This document shows, piece after piece, positions 12,685 through 53,817 of a stretch of 64,000 bases of DNA. The DNA lies in NCBI RefSeq assembly GCF_042242105.1, contig NC_092031.1, positions 18,258,662 to 18,322,661 on the forward strand, read 5' to 3'. This DNA is from Pempheris klunzingeri (Eukaryota > Chordata > Actinopteri > Acropomatiformes > Pempheridae). A program made the position numbers and the translations under genes. How positions within the stretch are numbered: the stretch's first letter is position 1; each line of letters opens with the position of its first letter. The notes under the pieces are model-generated. The model saw only the letters and a program-made list of their open reading frames with translations, was not told the origin of the DNA and ran no database searches.

Positions 12685-13369
12685 TCTGACCCCCCCGTCC
12701 ATGTGTCCAGCCTCAAATCCAACTGGTAGCCAAAATATTCAGTGGGATTTCACTGCCAACAGAACAAATGCTCGTGTGGCGGTCTGGAGACAGAGGGAGA
12801 TACTGTAGCCACATATACCCACAGCGGGGGGAGATGCAGCTCTCGGCTGGTTTATCTGGAGCGGGCCCATAAATCAGTCTCACACACAAAGCTCTGGGGA
12901 ATAAAACATCAAGGCAAAGTGCTTTCTTCCTAGTATTTCTGATATGTTAAAATAGAGCTACAGCTATTAGCCACTAATCAGTGGACAGAAAAGTTAATGA
13001 GCCACTGCTTTGATCCATTTCAGCAATTTTTAATTACCTAACTGCACATCTTCTGTGATGTTGAGCTTTCGGGTTTTTATACAAATAAAAATTGTCTAAA
13101 AATAAAAACACAATAAAACTGTATTTTACTCATTACTACTATACTATCTCCTGACACTCTGTGGAGCTCACATCCTCATCCCCAGTTTGCTATGACCGCT
13201 CTGCATCTGCCTCAGGTGTTGGGATGTGACATGATGTGTTCCTGGTGATATTTTTAATCTAACTTTCAAATGGATTTCTGACATTAATCCCGAGATCCAG
13301 TCTGTGTTAAAGCAGGATTACAGAAGCAGGACTTTTGTTTGCTAAGGACAAATGGATCGCTGTGCCTCT

Positions 13370-13960
13370 CCGTGACGCACAGCCCCGCGCGCCCCGCTGC
13401 GCTGGGGTCCCATCCTCAGCCCGGTGCCGTTCCTCCCCTCCCGCCCCTCAAACTCACCCGTCATGTTGATGTGCTGCTCACAGGAGAACCAGATGCCGGT
13501 GTGAAACTTCCTCATCACGTACTTATCCTCCCCGGTCTCCCAGATGTACTGCACCAGCCGCGTGTCGTTGATGTTGGAGCTGTTGAACCTGATGCAGAAC
13601 GACTGCTTGGTGGTGACCGGACCGGTGCAGAACGGCTTCACCACTTTCCGCGTCCCCTCGCACCAGTAGCTGGTGGTGAGAGCCGACACGGCCAGGAACA
13701 AAGCGAGGAAGTTCAGGGTGAGAGCCAGCGATGCTCTCCGCCGCCGGTCTATCCCCATCACGCCGACCGGAGGAGTGAGGATACCTAACTTAATCCCCGC
13801 CTTGTATGACACCGGATTCTGGAGACTTCTCCTCCTCAAATCCTCATAATCCGGTTATTCCCGTTAATATATCCGCGGCTAATTATCGTGGCGCGTCTGG
13901 CCCCTTCAGCGCGCGTCTCACATCTGCTCCTCCAGCGCAGCTGACTCCCTCATTTTGTAG
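13370..13960 (-). promoter_or_regulatory. CpG-rich promoter region of the GSG1-like gene
   Basis: CpG dinucleotides are dense from about 13370 to 13930 (for example acagccccgcgcgccccgct and atccgcggctaattatcgtg), unlike the CpG-poor DNA around it. The region covers exon 1 and the sequence upstream on the minus strand. A weak TATA-like element, gatatattaac, lies on minus at about 13863-13873, roughly 105-115 nt upstream of the start codon. CpG-rich start regions are usual for neuronal membrane genes. The transcription start cannot be set from sequence alone. Confidence 0.65.
13458..13758 (-). CDS. gsg1l2: GSG1-like protein, exon 1 (TM1 and first extracellular loop)
   Basis: Exon 1 encodes 100 residues plus one base. 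The start chosen is MGIDRRRRAS at 13758 because its context is strong (G at -3, G at +4) and it sits right before the basic stretch and first membrane segment (about residues 10-30, LALTLNFLALFLAV...). An in-frame ATG at 13839 would add 27 residues with no family resemblance. The loop has the claudin-type W-x-C pattern (SYWCEG), further cysteines at 44, 55 and 93, the family block IWETGEDKY-x-x-RKFHTGIW, and sequons at N59, N64 and N98. The donor is atgacgg|gtgagt, phase 1. GSG1L members modulate AMPA receptor gating and trafficking at the plasma membrane. Assignment to GSG1L2 rather than GSG1L is a judgement from TSYWCEGTRKVVKPFC and from divergence; the family call is firm. Confidence 0.9.
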
Positions 13961-47399: not shown

Positions 47400-47500
47400 A
47401 TCACAGCACAGCCTGATGAAGCAGAGTTCTGAGTGTTAAACACCTGGCAAATAAAAGCTGTTCTTACTACATTGGATGTTTGCATTCATAGGGCACGCAG

Positions 47501-47594
47501 GCTCCAGTGGTGCAATCGGTCAGCGCGCGGTACTTATAAGACAGTATGCAGGCGAGTGATGCCGAGGTTGTGAGTTCAAGCCTCACCTGGAGCA
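47501..47594 (+). tRNA. tRNA-Ile(UAU) with intron, copy 1
   Basis: The gene has acceptor arms GCTCCAG/CTGGAGC, D arm GTGC/GCGC, anticodon stem CGGTA/TGCCG and T arm GTGAG/CTCAC with loop TTCAAGC. Anticodon TAT lies at 47535-47537. A 20-nt intron (47539-47558, agacagtatgcaggcgagtg) follows position 37, as is usual for vertebrate tRNA-Ile(UAU). A box (TGGTGCAATCGG) and B box (GAGTTCAAGCC) are internal Pol III promoters. CCA is not encoded. It decodes the rare AUA codon. The first TTTT is at 47687, 93 nt past the gene, within LINE-derived DNA. The 5' flank gttcttactacattggatgt is shared with the later copies. Confidence 0.92.
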
Positions 47595-47990
47595 CGTTAG
47601 CCTTTATCTGCTCAGGAGGCTGCAGTCTTCTGGAGTGCTGGGGGTGCTGCTTGAGACCTTCTATGAGTCTCTTGTGGCATCAGCAATTTTATATGTAGCA
47701 GTCTGCTGGGGGAGCAGCATCACAGCTGTAGAGTGTAGACTGGACAAGCTCATCAAGACGGCCAGCCTGACCTGAGTTGCCCCCCTTGACCCAGTGGACG
47801 GTCGAGGTGAACCACTCCCACTCCATAAAGGGCGCACTGGAGAGTTCATTCAGCGACAGACTCGTCCGCGATATCGCAGGTCCTTCCTTCCAGCTGCTGT
47901 CAGACTTTACAACCAGCACCTAGCATCCCAGTAGACCACACTGCACCGAAACCGACAACAACAGCAGTATGATGTTCACCAACGTGCAAT
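47595..47990 (+). pseudogene. LINE ORF 3' end fused behind tRNA copy 1
   Basis: Directly after the tRNA the sequence carries, in shifting frames, ILYVAVCWGSSITAVE, RLDKLIKTASL and finally RSFLPAAVRLYNQHLASQ before a stop. The last block is the typical end of a group of fish non-LTR retrotransposon polyproteins (RYRRSFLPAAVRLYN). It keeps only about 130 codons. The copy is 5'-truncated exactly at the tRNA gene and is the best preserved of the tails. Confidence 0.75.
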
Positions 47991-48485
47991 ATATTCATTC
48001 GTCTTTATACCCCACTTCACAATTTGCAAAAAAGAAAAATTCTCAAACTCTGATCTGATTTGCTCTTCATAACACCGATCTGTAGAAATGATGAATATCA
48101 CAGCACACAACAGAGTGGAAAAAGTCACACAAGTGCATCTTAACACTGTGACCTCTGGCAGTGAGCAGGAAGTCAGATGAATGCTCCTCTCCAGAGAGAG
48201 ATCGTGCTGCTGAGATCACTGCCAGACTGATGTTAAAGCACAAGTAAGTATTTTGCAGACATCACTTGACTTGCACTTTCACTGGTGAATATTTCTCATC
48301 AGCCAACAACAAGAATGACCAATGACGTGGAATGAATAAACAACTGATCCACAGTGATACTGGAATTAACATTGTTCAGACAGACAAGAAAGACTTTTTT
48401 GTCTTTGGCCAAGAAACACTACGTAGTAAAGGTGAGTCGCTTCCTCTCCTTGTGGTTGTGTTCCTTGCCATGTAATACATATTAA
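47991..48485. other. Non-coding DNA, probable LINE 3' untranslated remnant
   Basis: The stretch starts with text such as accaacgtgcaatatattca, typical of a LINE 3' end. Beyond about 48060 nothing is recognised. Confidence 0.4.
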
Positions 48486-49361
48486 AGTTAAAGCTGCAGT
48501 TGGTAACTTCTAAAAAAAATATCTTTATCTCATAGTTGCTGAAACTATTACTGTATCCTGACAGAAGTGCGTGAATCAGCTTCTTCTGGCTCCTAGTGGT
48601 CTTGCAATCAGAAGAATCCTGAATGAAAACAGCCAATCAGAGCGGGAGCAGTCCCTAGCTCAGTGTCAATCACTGTTCATGCACAGCCCCCCCCTTCCCC
48701 CCCCAGCTCTCTGTTTATCGCTGTCTGTTTTCTGCTTGTGTGTGTCGCCTCACTCGCTCTCTGTTTAAACACAACTGACAAATATGTGGAAGAAGTTCGT
48801 ACTTCAAAAAACAAAATCACAAACAGCAGGTGATAGCCTGCTTCCGATAAAGACACTTCATCATGTGTGGGGGAAAGATTGGGGGAAATGAAACCGAGCA
48901 GTGTGGAGATGAGCAGCCAGCAGTGGGCAGGGTTCAGGTATTCTGAGCTACTTGTCAGGACTTTGTCCACAGCTCTTTGCGTCTCAAAGGAAGTGAGCTC
49001 ATCTCTAAATTGCCATTTTAATTTAATTTGCAACCAAAACTACTGCTCTGTCTCTCTGTCAATCAGTATTCAAATCCATTATGTGCATTTTGGGCATTTT
49101 TAACTCTTGCTTGAACACACTCTGTTTGCGTTGCAGTGGTGACTTGGATAAACTAACTACTCTGGATCTGGAATGGAAAGTTTCCCTCTGGAATCAACCC
49201 AGTGGAAGATATTCTGAAAGTTGGCTTTTTAGCTAACCAAGGAATGTGCCTTGTAACTCATCGAGGATGCAGAGAGGACAGTTAGTCCTGATTTAATTAG
49301 TTATTCTGTCCTGGAGGAAGCCCTCACATCCCATAAAAGAATCTTAACAGCAACTTTAAGG
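48486..49361. repeat. Probable teleost DNA-transposon repeat
   Basis: The left end aaagttaaagctgcagttgg with taacttct, and inner parts such as gctgaaactattactgtatc and aacagccaatcagagcggga, match a fish repeat that usually ends with a reversed gcagctttaac. Here the right end reads aacagcaactttaag at about 49347-49361. The middle contains unrelated text, perhaps a further insertion. Limits are approximate. Confidence 0.5.
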
Positions 49362-49398
49362 TAAGTCTGTCTGTAAATATCACACCCCTGTATGGGGC

Positions 49399-49400
<2 letters not shown>

Positions 49401-49462
<62 letters not shown>
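49401..49462 (+). repeat. (TG)n microsatellite
   Basis: An uninterrupted TG tract just left of the tRNA tandem array. Confidence 0.97.
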
Positions 49463-49463
<1 letters not shown>

Positions 49464-50245
49464 TACAGAGAGGAGAAATAATAATATAAAAGTGTTTACA
49501 TTTTACTTGAAAGTAATACATGCTTTAAACCCAGTTTTGCTTTTTAGTGCTAAAACAGATCGTGCCAAGGAAAACCACTCATCAAAACTGGATTTAGGTA
49601 CATCTGCCCATGCCTCTCAAAGACCATCTGTAGCAGGCATTCCTTTGTGAGTACAATGCTGCATAGAGTGCTGGACAGACACACAGACCTATACAGAGGG
49701 TTGAGTATGTTGTTCAAGATTTATCTTTATTGCAATTTGTACATACGTCCTCTTTTTTCACGAAAACATTTCAGCATAAAAGATGCAAAAGTAGAGAAAT
49801 GGTGTACAAAAAGAAAGAGAATTGCTGCTTTGTTTTATTAGAATAACAGAGGGGAGAAAAGCCGCACAGCCGATTTTGTGAAGACCCACATCACGCTCAT
49901 ATTCTGCCTCCACAGCTCCAGGGGCACAAGGTCCAAGAGGTGATGTGCCAGCGGTTTGTCTTGCAAAGGATGGTGAGGAGGAACCTGGTATAGGACTACC
50001 ACAGCTAAGAGTCTAGCCTAACTGACCCCCTGGCAGTCAGCAAACTTTTTTCTGGCACATATAGCAAAAGAATTATTGCAGTACATTGGACCTTTGCTTT
50101 TCAGGGCATCATAAACAACTGAACCTATTTTTGAGCTGCTGTACAAATAAAAGCTAATAATAATGCTTTTTATTTGTCCAGAGAGGGGAACCACACATGC
50201 TTCTGTTCTTACTACATTGGATGGTTAAAGGCACCGGTTGTTGAG

Positions 50246-50339
50246 GCTCCAGTGGCGCAATCGGTCAGCGCGCGGTACTTATAAGACAGTATTCAGGCGA
50301 GTAATGCCGAGGTTGTGAGTTCAAGCCTCACCTGGAGCA
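50246..50339 (+). tRNA. tRNA-Ile(UAU) with intron, copy 2
   Basis: All arms pair as in copy 1, with D arm GCGC/GCGC. Anticodon TAT is at 50280-50282 and the 20-nt intron at 50284-50303 (agacagtattcaggcgagta). The nearest TTTT is at 50409, 70 nt downstream, inside LINE-derived sequence. It looks functional and heads the first full unit of the array. Confidence 0.92.
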
Positions 50340-50740
50340 CGTTATTAGTTTGCAGCCCTTATCTGCTCAGACTGCAGTCTTCTGGTCTCACCTTCTATGA
50401 CCCTGTTGTTTTATATGTAGCGGTATGCTGGAGTGGCAGCATTGCTGCTGTGGAGTGGAAGAGACTGGACAAGCTCATCAAGAAGTGGAGGTGGTGGGAG
50501 AGAGGAGGATGTTGGCAAAGCTATCATCCATGAGACAGAATGACTCCCACCCAATGAAGGACACACTGACAACACGGGAGAGCTCCTTCAGCGACAGATT
50601 CCTCCACTCATTTGAGTGAAGGAGTTTGAAGGAGCGATATTGCAGCTCCTTCCTGTCAGACTCTACAACCAGCACTGCTCGCAGGAGTAGAATACTGGAC
50701 AGACACACGTACCTACACAGGGAGTCAAGTATGTTGTTTA
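50340..50740 (+). pseudogene. LINE ORF 3' end behind tRNA copy 2
   Basis: Frames give DPVVLYVAVCWSGSIAAVEW, KRLDKLIKK, then (shifted) ERRMLAKLSSM, DSHPMKDTLT and SSFSDRF. This follows the C-terminal order of fish LINE polyproteins (AVCWGSSI...RLDKLIRKAS...RRMLAKLSSM...HPLHDTL...SSFSGRL). Stops and frameshifts make it non-functional. Confidence 0.75.
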
Positions 50741-51232
50741 AGTTTTATCTTTTGTTACAATTTGTACATACGTCCTCTTTTTTCATTTCAGCATAAAAGA
50801 TGCAAAAGAAGAGAAATGGCGTACAAAAAGAAAGAGTATTGCTGCTCTGTTTTAGTAGAATAACAGAGGGGAGAAAAGCTGCACAGTCGATTTTGTGAAG
50901 ATCCACATCATGCTCATATTCTGTCTCCACAGCTCCACGGGCACAAGGTCCAAGAGGTGATGCAGCAACATTATCAGCACCAGATCTGCCTTGCAAAAGA
51001 TGTTGAAAGAGGAGGAACCAGGTGTCGGGCTACCACAGCCTAAGTAAAGTAAATGGACCATTGCTTTTTCAGGGCATCATAAACATTCCTTGTGTAAGAC
51101 ACTGCTGGATAACTGAACCTATTTTGAGCTACTGTACAAATAAAAGTTAATAATAATGTTTTTTCCAGAAAGGGGAACCACACATGCTTCTGTCATTACT
51201 ACATTGGATGTTTAAATTCAAGCTTAGTTCAG

Positions 51233-51326
51233 GCTCCAGTGGTGCAATCGGTCAGCGTGTGGTACTTATAAGACAGTACGTAGGCGAATAATGCAGAGGT
51301 TGTGAGTTTGAGCCTCACCTGGACCA
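51233..51326 (+). pseudogene. Degenerate tRNA-Ile(UAU), copy 3
   Basis: The 94-nt outline is kept but key features are broken. The 3' acceptor strand reads CTGGACC instead of CTGGAGC, the anticodon stem 3' strand reads TGCAG instead of TGCCG, and the T loop is TTTGAGC with C56 lost. The TAT anticodon remains. The same acceptor and stem changes occur in copy 5, so they predate the unit duplication. Confidence 0.85.
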
Positions 51327-51560
51327 AGTTATCAGTTTGCAGCCTTTATCTGTTCAGGTGGCATCACGGCTGTGAACTGGAAGAGACTGGGCAAGCTGAT
51401 CAAGAAGGCCAGCTCTCATATTATGCCTCTACAGCTCCACGGACACAAGTTCCAAAAACTGACGCTCCAACATTATCTGCACCAAATCTACCTGGCAAAA
51501 CCCAAGGGCCATGAGCCTGTGGAACCGTCAGGCTCCAAACTTAGGATAGAGGATAAAGGA
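51327..51560 (+). pseudogene. Shortened LINE tail behind degenerate tRNA copy 3
   Basis: Reads AVNWKRLGKLIKKASS-like text and then passes directly into S-segment-like sequence (ctctacagctccacggacac). It is an internally deleted version of the tail plus S segment. A near-identical copy is at 52941-53177. Confidence 0.7.
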
Positions 51561-51855
51561 TAGCCTTTTAATACTAACACATTAAAAGCATACCATGATC
51601 TCACCAGGAAAGAACTGCATGGCCAAATGGCAGCAGTCACATGGGGCTAATAGGTTTGTGAACAGACATATCATTTACAAAAATAGCTAAATCCAAGGCT
51701 TGAATTATCATAGCTGGTTATGTACGTTAGCTATGCCAGGCAGACACAGTGACGGGGGGGTAGGCTTCATATCACAATTATAGCTGCATAAAGAGGGGAA
51801 CCACACATGCTTCTGTTCTCACTACATAGGATGTTTAAAGTCAGGGGTTCTTCAT

Positions 51856-51949
51856 GCTCCAGTGGCGCAATCGGTCAGCGCGCGGTACTTATAAGACAGT
51901 ATTCAGGCGAGTGATGCCGAGGTTGTGAGTTCAAGCCTCACCTGGAGCA
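51856..51949 (+). tRNA. tRNA-Ile(UAU) with intron, copy 4
   Basis: Intact arms, anticodon TAT at 51890-51892 and intron 51894-51913 (agacagtattcaggcgagtg). It is identical to copy 6 through the gene. First TTTT at 52019, 70 nt downstream. Confidence 0.92.
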
Positions 51950-52350
51950 CATTATTAGTTTGCAGCCCTTACCTGCTCAGACTGCAGTCTTCTGGTCTCA
52001 CCTTCTATGACCCTGTTGTTTTATATGTAGTGGTCTGCTGGAGTGGCAGCATTGCTGCTGTGGAGTGGAAGAGACTGGACAAGCTCATCAAGAAGTGGAG
52101 GTGGTGGGAGAGAGGAGGATGTTGGCAAAGCTCTCATCCATGAGACAGAATGACTCCCACCCAATGAAGGACACACTGACAGCACGGGAGAGCTCCTTCA
52201 GCGACAGATTCCTCCACTCATTTGAGTGAAGGAGTTTGAAGGAGCGATATTGCAGCTCCTTCCTTCCTGTCAGACTCTACAACCAGCACTGCTCGCAGGA
52301 GTAGAACACTGGACAGACACACGGACCTACACAGGGAGTCAAATATGTTG
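51950..52350 (+). pseudogene. LINE ORF 3' end behind tRNA copy 4
   Basis: Near-identical to 50340-50740, with the same blocks DPVVLYVVVCWSGSIAAVEW and KRLDKLIKK and the same frameshifts. The disabling changes were therefore present before the array expanded. Confidence 0.75.
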
Positions 52351-52846
52351 TTTAAGTTTTATCTTTTGTTACAATTTGTACATACGTCCTCTTTTTTCAT
52401 TTCAGCATAAAAGATGCAAAAGAAGAGAAATGGCGTACAAAAAGAAAGAGTATTGCTGCTCTGTTTTAGTAGAATAACAGAGGGGAGAAAAGCTGCACAG
52501 TCGATTTTGTGAAGATCCACATCATGCTCATATTCTGTCTCCACAGCTCCACGGGCACAAGGTCCAAGAGGTGAGACAGCAACATTATCAGCACCAGATC
52601 TGCCTTGCAAAAGATGTTGAAAGAGGAGGAACCAGGTGTCGGGCTACCACAGCTAAGTAAAGTAAATGGACCGTTGCTATTTCAGGGCATCATAAACATT
52701 CCTTGTGTAAGACACTGCTGGATAACTGAACCTATTTTGAGCTACTGTACAAATAAAAGTTAATAATAATGTTTTTTTCCAGAAAGGGGAACCACACATG
52801 CTTCTGTCATTACTACATTGGATGGTTAAATTCAAGCTTAGTTCAG

Positions 52847-52940
52847 GCTACTGTGGTGCAATCGGTCAGTGCGCAGTACTTATAAGACAGCACGTAGGCG
52901 AATAATGCAGAGGTTGTGAGTTCAAGCCTCACCTGGACCA
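52847..52940 (+). pseudogene. Degenerate tRNA-Ile(UAU), copy 5
   Basis: Shares CTGGACC and TGCAG with copy 3 and adds further damage: the 5' acceptor reads GCTACTG and the anticodon stem starts CAGTA. It is the more decayed of the two degenerate copies. Confidence 0.85.
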
Positions 52941-53177
52941 AGTTATCAGTTTGCAGCCTTTATCTGTTCAGGTGGCATCACGGCTGTGAACTGGAAGAGA
53001 CTGGGCAAGCTGATCAAGAAGGCCAGCTCTCATATTATGCCTCTACAGCTCCACGGACACAAGTTCCAAAAACTGATGCTCCAACATTATCTGCACCAAA
53101 TCTACCTGGCAAAACCCAAGGGCCATGAGCCTGTGGAACCGTCAGGCTCCAAACTTAGGATAGAGGATAAAGGATAG
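52941..53177 (+). pseudogene. Shortened LINE tail behind degenerate tRNA copy 5
   Basis: Near-identical to 51327-51563. Downstream, the text between catggccaaatg and the ttagctatgccagg block is about 93 bp shorter than in the preceding unit, which accounts for most of the 1521 versus 1610 spacing. Confidence 0.7.
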
Positions 53178-53376
53178 TCTTTTAATACTAACACATTAAA
53201 AGCATACCATGATCTCACCAGGAAAGAACTGCATGGCCAAATGTACATTAGCTATGCCAGGCAGACACAGTGACGGGGGGGTAGGCTTCATATCACAATT
53301 ATAGCTGCATAAAGAGGGGAACCACACATGCTTCTGTTCTTACTACATAGGATGTTTAAAGTCAGGGGTTCTTCAT

Positions 53377-53470
53377 GCTCCAGTGGCGCAATCGGTCAGC
53401 GCGCGGTACTTATAAGACAGTATTCAGGCGAGTGATGCCGAGGTTGTGAGTTCAAGCCTCACCTGGAGCA
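53377..53470 (+). tRNA. tRNA-Ile(UAU) with intron, copy 6
   Basis: Intact arms, anticodon TAT at 53411-53413 and intron 53415-53434, the same as copy 4. First TTTT at 53540, 70 nt downstream. It heads the last, incomplete unit. Confidence 0.92.
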
Positions 53471-53817
53471 CATTATTAGTTTACAGCCCTTACCTGCTCA
53501 GACTGCAGTCTTCTGGTCTCACCTTCTATGACCCTGTTGTTTTATATGTAGTGGTCTGCTGGGGTAGCAGCATTGCTGCTGTGGAGTGGAAGAAACTGGA
53601 CAAGCTCATCAAGAAGTGGAGGTGGTGAGAGAGAGGAGGATGTTGGCAAAGCTATCATCCATGAGACAGAATGACTCCCACCCAATGAAGGACACACTGA
53701 CAACAAGGGAGAGCTCCTTCAGCGACAGATTCCTCCACTCATTTGAGTGAAGGAGTTTGAAGGAGCGATATTGCAGCTCCTTCCTTCCTGTCAGACTCTA
53801 CAACCAGCACTGCTCGC
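53471..53817 (+). pseudogene. LINE ORF 3' end behind tRNA copy 6
   Basis: Same tail as in the earlier units up to ctacaaccagcactgctcgc, then cut off and followed by a short S-like remnant (gttgttttagttttatcttt, caatttgtacatgcctcttc). Confidence 0.75.

Follow-up and report, generated by a model that had tools for sequence, protein, structure and literature searches.

A 64,000-nucleotide (nt) stretch of the Pempheris klunzingeri genome (contig NC_092031.1, positions 18,258,662 to 18,322,661 of the forward strand; hereafter the window) contains a tandem array of six tRNA-Ile(UAU) copies, each joined at its 3' side to a piece of a long interspersed nuclear element (LINE). The copies, named T1 to T6 in their order along the plus strand, span positions 47501-53470. 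Four of them (T1, T2, T4 and T6) are intact and two (T3 and T5) are broken, as a preliminary description of the locus had proposed. More specifically, ARAGORN calls four tRNA-Ile(TAT) genes, starting at 47501, 50246, 51856 and 53377, and the Rfam tRNA model (RF00005, gathering score 29) gives 50.5 bits for T1, 55.2 bits for each of T2, T4 and T6, 29.6 bits for T3, just above the gathering score, and 23.5 bits for T5, below it. All six copies carry a 20-nt intron, which in standard tRNA position numbering lies at the same place 3' of the anticodon loop as in the genes found outside the array. The exons of T2, T4 and T6 show no difference over 74 positions and those of T1 are off at one site, while T3 and T5 have changed from the native exon form at six and eight of these positions, respectively. 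The introns of T4 and T6 are identical.

The LINE lies in sense relative to the tRNA and consists of C-terminal coding sequence. It starts 12 nt past the tRNA in T2 to T6, whereas in T1 a loss of 10 nt spans the junction and leaves 4 nt of trailer, in agreement with the earlier statement that the LINE follows within a few bases. Alignment of dispersed LINE copies with T1 to T4, and of T5 and T6 with T3 and T4, placed the beginning of LINE likeness at the same nucleotides right after the TTT of the trailer; due to the loss in T1, the common start is inferred for that copy. The trailers that precede the LINE read CGTTATTAGTTT in T2, CATTATTAGTTT in T4 and T6, and AGTTATCAGTTT in T3 and T5. That each copy is followed by the same C-terminal LINE, as had been claimed, applies to the common start point but not to the extent, since no more than about 78 nt is left in T3 and T5 and T1 is truncated at both ends. 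The T1 LINE ends at least about 75 bp short of the point still aligned by dispersed copies. A reverse-transcriptase piece of the LINE (L008) matches Pfam RVT_1 weakly (E=3e-5, below the curated cut-off); two other LINE pieces gave no match against Pfam, and a PDB search gave no useful match. The features of the array are listed in Table 1.

Table 1. Features of the tRNA-Ile(UAU) array, in window coordinates.
Feature	Position	Strand	Basis and remarks
T1 intact tRNA-Ile(UAU), 20-nt intron	47501..47594	+	ARAGORN; Rfam RF00005 50.5 bits
T1 LINE fragment, truncated at both ends when compared with dispersed copies	47599..48029	+	blastn; 5' and 3' alignments
Unit tail ahead of T2	49664..50181	+	self-blast; relatives in genome search only within the array
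T2 leader (-30..-1), hypervariable relative to T4 and T6	50216..50245	+	T2/T4 comparison
T2 intact tRNA-Ile(UAU)	50246..50339	+	ARAGORN; Rfam 55.2 bits
T2 trailer, ends TTT at the LINE junction, resembles the trailer of L042	50340..50351	+	
T2 LINE C-terminal fragment with internal deletions	50352..50687	+	
Unit tail and T3 5' flank	50688..51232	+	genome search: matches only inside the array
T3 broken tRNA-Ile(UAU) copy	51233..51326	+	Rfam 29.6 bits; no ARAGORN call; 6/74 exon changes
T3 LINE remnant, ~78 nt	51339..51416	+	
T4 intact tRNA-Ile(UAU), exons as in T2 and T6	51856..51949	+	ARAGORN; Rfam
T4 LINE C-terminal fragment	51962..52301	+	end placed by alignment to T2
T5 broken tRNA-Ile(UAU) copy	52847..52940	+	Rfam 23.5 bits; 8/74 exon changes
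T5 LINE remnant, ~78 nt	52953..53030	+	by alignment to T3
T6 intact tRNA-Ile(UAU)	53377..53470	+	ARAGORN; Rfam; exons and intron as in T4
T6 LINE C-terminal fragment	53483..53817	+	likeness to the T4 unit stops at 53817

Comparison of the 47-54 kb region with itself, along the lines of the dot-plot check that the preliminary description had suggested, resolves head-to-tail units with common flanks and a common junction. Positions 50182-51629 and 51792-53243 are 97.2% identical, and positions 51720-52296 and 53241-53817 are 98.3% identical; these outer duplications are spaced by 1610 bp and 1521 bp, close to the whole units of about 1.6 kb that had been described. Inside a unit, the segments that hold T2 and T3 and some of their flanking sequence (50117-50370 and 51111-51357) share 86.3% identity, and the unit tail ahead of T2 recurs in the next interval (49664-49945 against 50688-50962, 88% alike). 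The lower identity of the inner pair (86%, against 97-98% for the outer ones) indicates that the inner duplication, of about 1 kb, preceded those of the outer units of 1.61 and 1.52 kb. Flanks are alike on both sides within the array, so the reported sharing of 5' flanks among the copies was found again. Together, the common LINE start, the identities and the LINE-free loci elsewhere in the genome support one tRNA-LINE founder followed by nested duplication, the sequence of events that had been proposed from the first inspection. A single truncation point common to the copies makes independent insertions unlikely.

Repeats of this kind may also be created during assembly, by false duplication of one unit, and a copy-number error would be compatible with the assembly sequence taken alone. 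We consider such an artefact very unlikely. The window contains no N, the units differ from each other by 2-3% and in their spacing, and the changes in T3 are different from those in T5. The lack of N, together with copies that differ in both sequence and spacing, argues against the false duplication of one sequence.

To place the array in its genomic context, the whole assembly (645.9 Mb, 439 contigs) was searched with T2 and its 5' flank, a query that would miss much more diverged copies. The search returned 16 matching loci (16/16 candidates scored), of which six belong to the array and ten lie outside it. The outside loci comprise eight intact tRNA-Ile(TAT) genes by ARAGORN, one locus with the anticodon TCT and one fragment. 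The array thus holds four of the 12 intact tRNA-Ile(UAU) genes found in the assembly. The earlier view of a notable local expansion of the AUA decoder is weakened by this share and by the repetitive tRNA clusters known from zebrafish, and with a total of 12 the premise of a low-copy gene is only partly right here (zebrafish clusters: PMC11417395). Two further observations concern the outside loci themselves. L049 (G000:C20:14931811-14931907) is the tRNA-Ile(UAU)-derived locus with anticodon TCT (tRNA-Arg by ARAGORN; Rfam 46.4 bits); by eye it has mismatches in the anticodon and T stems and is probably a pseudogene. L043 and L044 (G000:C12:11453168-11453676) are two intact tRNA-Ile(UAU) genes in opposite orientation, separated by about 315 bp; they have the same intron, and both lack a terminator of four T within 50 nt.

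The fusion is present at no other found locus. The LINE parts of T1 and T2 matched nothing in the outside loci that were fetched (L031, L032 and L041-L050), with about 1.5 kb of flank examined at the ten outside loci. The LINE family is dispersed in the assembly, with at least 205 candidate places, of which 40 were scored; none of 26 fetched copies from these places had an ARAGORN tRNA beside the LINE (about 1.5 kb on each side). The inter-unit sequence at 50688-51232 matched only within the array. An uninterrupted array flank, which would represent an empty site, was not found elsewhere in the genome, all seven matches lying in the array (4/4 candidates scored). A search of viral contigs with the 5' half of the tRNA gave 0 matches.

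These searches bear on the idea that the copies belong to a short interspersed nuclear element (SINE) family, or were produced by a tRNA-targeting LINE, and hence represent repeated independent insertions and not duplication. A tRNA head with a LINE-derived tail does resemble a SINE, and fish DNA transposons that target small-RNA genes have been described (PMC8869645, in the part available). However, flanks are common on both sides within the array and the fusion was found only in it, and we regard repeated insertion as extremely unlikely. The SINE variant was rejected because no dispersed fusion copy was found among the 16 loci and because the T1 LINE, although the longest in the array, stops short of the family 3' alignment, so that the tail is not the LINE 3' end. 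The tRNA-targeting LINE was rejected since no recurrent insertion at tRNA genes was seen among the 26 copies examined, out of at least 205 candidate places.

The explanation that we favour, and hold to be quite probable, is a tandem tRNA-Ile(UAU) array that grew by unequal exchange from one tRNA-LINE founder. In this founder, a 5'-truncated copy of the dispersed LINE would have become attached, in sense orientation, to the trailer of the tRNA at the T-run of the RNA polymerase III (Pol III) terminator. The founder unit would then have multiplied in tandem by unequal exchange, with the LINE carried along as a passenger. T1, T2, T4 and T6 probably still act as ordinary intron-containing tRNA genes transcribed from internal promoters, and T3 and T5 would be dead copies.

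The place of the join is suggested by one of the intact outside genes, L042 (G000:C20:18484159-18484259, minus strand), which lies about 161 kb past the window end. Its trailer, TGTTATCGGTTTTAC, matches the T3/T5 trailer form at 10 of 11 nt, up to the TTTT of L042. The other seven intact outside genes match this form at 2 to 7 of 11 nt, and 30 of 200000 random 11-mers reach 10/11. Furthermore, the intron of T1 is identical to that of L042. Because of this trailer likeness, and because LINE sequence begins immediately past the TTT of the trailer, the sequence suggests that the tRNA-LINE join sits at the T-run of the Pol III terminator. Between L042 and the array, the 5' flanks showed no convincing likeness: one of three comparisons exceeded the top score of 60 shuffles by one point, with the aligned stretches at differing distances from the tRNA. 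Similarly, of 60 comparisons between 400-nt flanks of the ten outside loci and those of T1 to T3, taken on both sides, three reached the top score of 60 shuffles or exceeded it by one point; the stretches aligned there do not correspond in their distance from the tRNA and were set aside. The search for a target-site duplication gave nothing, in that no 7-mer is common to 80 nt of the T1 5' flank and positions 47991-48120, where the 3' boundary of the LINE has been lost.

How the LINE came to be joined is about evenly balanced between a DNA-level and an RNA-level origin, slightly favouring the former. At the DNA level, which we give an even chance, an existing tRNA-Ile gene would have received a 5'-truncated LINE insertion at its terminator, or a deletion would have brought the LINE there, and tandem duplication would have followed. 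This route needs no unusual reverse transcription. LINE endonucleases favour T-rich sites, and the T-run of the trailer could have served as an insertion site. The motif named for LINE-1 is TT/AAAA (PMC13174262, in the portion available). In addition, five tRNA-Ile(UAU)-like loci are located at 14.89-14.95 Mb on the same contig as the array. Against a DNA-level origin, the array and its nearest relative L042 have no convincing 5' flank likeness, and neither a native 3' flank nor a target-site duplication was found after the T1 LINE.

At the RNA level, which we rate at somewhat below an even chance, the LINE reverse transcriptase, while copying LINE RNA, would have jumped to the U-tract at the 3' end of an unspliced pre-tRNA-Ile, or a ligated RNA would have served as its template; the complementary DNA would have been inserted, remained active from its internal promoter and then been duplicated. 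Consistent with this, the LINE is in sense and its truncation point is joined directly to a small-RNA 3' end, and L042 shares 10 of 11 trailer nt and the T1 intron, yet its 5' flank is without convincing likeness. U6/LINE chimeras by template switching have been reported for the L1, L2 and RTE clades (PMC4476161, as far as the available text goes). However, the 11-nt trailer match is short, no target-site duplication was found, the 3' boundary of the LINE is lost, and LINE-1 tRNA chimeras are mostly half-length and antisense in the available account (PMC13174262), unlike the array.

The T-loop sequence is TTCAAGC in all four intact array copies, in contrast to TTCGAGC in all eight intact outside genes. 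An extended form of the RNA-level origin, which we consider improbable, would see the locus as a captured proto-SINE event, in which an unspliced, full-length pre-tRNA-Ile became linked through its terminal U-tract to a LINE and was inserted again, remaining an active gene where a mobile SINE might have arisen, and then multiplied by unequal exchange, providing a separate TTCAAGC isodecoder that may be expressed at another stage.

Differences between sister copies were used to assess whether the array is active. Between T2 and T4, the leader (30 nt before the tRNA) differs at 8 of 30 positions, compared with 13 of 1070 elsewhere in the unit (p=1.8e-8), and T2 and T6 show the same eight differences. 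All eight are transversions, against 6 of 18 differences outside the leader and the T3/T5 body (p=0.002). An earlier divergence of the entire 5' flank was rejected as the source of the leader differences, since positions -65..-31 differ at only 1 of 34. In pairwise comparisons of T1 to T4, positions -19..-3 differ at 52/102 and positions -42..-20 at 15/138. For the broken pair T3 and T5, the leader differs at 1/30 and the tRNA body at 9/94 (p=2.1e-5), and six of their eight exon differences fall at native CpG sites, which make up 14 of the 74 exon positions. Direct contrast of T2/T4 with T3/T5 is weaker (leader p=0.026, body p=0.018, both uncorrected and based on small numbers). The immediate flanks of tRNA genes are highly mutated through transcription and human tRNA loci are mostly unmethylated, according to the available part of PMC8113476. 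These patterns are consistent with intact copies that may be transcribed in the germ line and with broken copies T3 and T5 that would be methylated and silent.

Several observations weigh against this interpretation. The leaders of T4 and T6 are identical (0/30) while their other flanks differ at 8/388, which departs from the 8/30 of T2 and T4 (p=0.005) and gives no simple fit to active as opposed to silenced copies. Given this identity, steady hypermutation of the leaders could hold only if T4 and T6 had undergone conversion with each other; alternatively, the T2 leader differences arose in one multi-site event in a single lineage. Some changes are common to copies out of the duplication order: C11T occurs in T1, T3 and T5, and the intron of T2 equals that of the outside gene L041. 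Such changes point to gene conversion or recurrent mutation, and the exon identity of the intact copies may thus partly reflect conversion and not selection. Finally, no TTTT occurs within 69 nt after any array copy, although TTT is found at +9 or +10 in all; two of the eight native intact genes likewise lack TTTT within 50 nt. Judged by these T-runs, Pol III termination at the array copies may be inefficient, and read-through from the array tRNAs into LINE sequence is possible.

Some additional features were recorded. The transversion-only spectrum of the leader (50216-50245 against 51826-51855) had no precedent in our literature searches, which were not aimed at mutation spectra. Upstream of the leader, a 23-nt block at -42..-20 (47459-47481 in T1, with counterparts before T2 to T6) is largely conserved, with 5 of 23 columns varying among T1 to T4, and could represent a Pol III element upstream of the gene. 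Elsewhere in the window, an exon of a GSG1-like protein lies at 13342-13839 on the minus strand (Pfam PF07803, E=7e-42), in keeping with a vertebrate genome.

As a whole, the array illustrates how tRNA genes multiply and age, and is useful rather than exotic. Its sister copies of similar age, intact and broken, with differing patterns of leader and body mutation, form a compact natural experiment that allows CpG decay to be set against mutation linked to transcription within a single locus. If the junction arose via RNA, it would exemplify the kind of tRNA-LINE fusion thought to start SINEs, with the tRNA half remaining a gene. tRNA-derived SINEs combine a tRNA head with a LINE-derived tail. 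The array differs from them in that it was not found dispersed, its tail consists of C-terminal coding sequence and lacks the 3' end of the LINE, and its tRNA head is intact.

A likeness also exists to U6/LINE and tRNA/LINE-1 chimeras, in which a 5'-truncated LINE comes directly after a small Pol III RNA, in sense in the U6 case (available parts of PMC4476161 and PMC13174262). These chimeras are described there as insertions, with target-site duplications in most checked cases, and those with tRNA are mostly half-length and antisense. The tRNA of the array, in contrast, is full length, retains its intron and is followed by the LINE in sense, with no target-site duplication found.

The tRNA clusters of zebrafish are much larger than the array. 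There, isodecoders of the egg and early embryo are encoded in repetitive regions and later-rising ones by scattered genes (PMC11417395, in the part available). The array resembles these clusters in that its tRNA genes are grouped and carry an isodecoder unlike that of the isolated genes, and by this analogy it is worth testing whether the TTCAAGC isodecoder is stage-specific. In humans, the tRNA variable-number tandem repeat at 1q23.3 consists of 7.3-kb units, each holding five tRNA genes that belong to several types, and an allele has 9-43 such units (available part of PMC4041453). Both loci are built of tandem tRNA units that contain a partial LINE, with copy number known to vary at 1q23.3, whereas the units of the array are 1.6 kb long, have one tRNA type and, compared with what that source describes, join the LINE directly to the tRNA trailer. 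Tandem tRNA arrays, including units with a partial LINE, are thus already known, and the tRNA-LINE junction is the interesting part of the locus.

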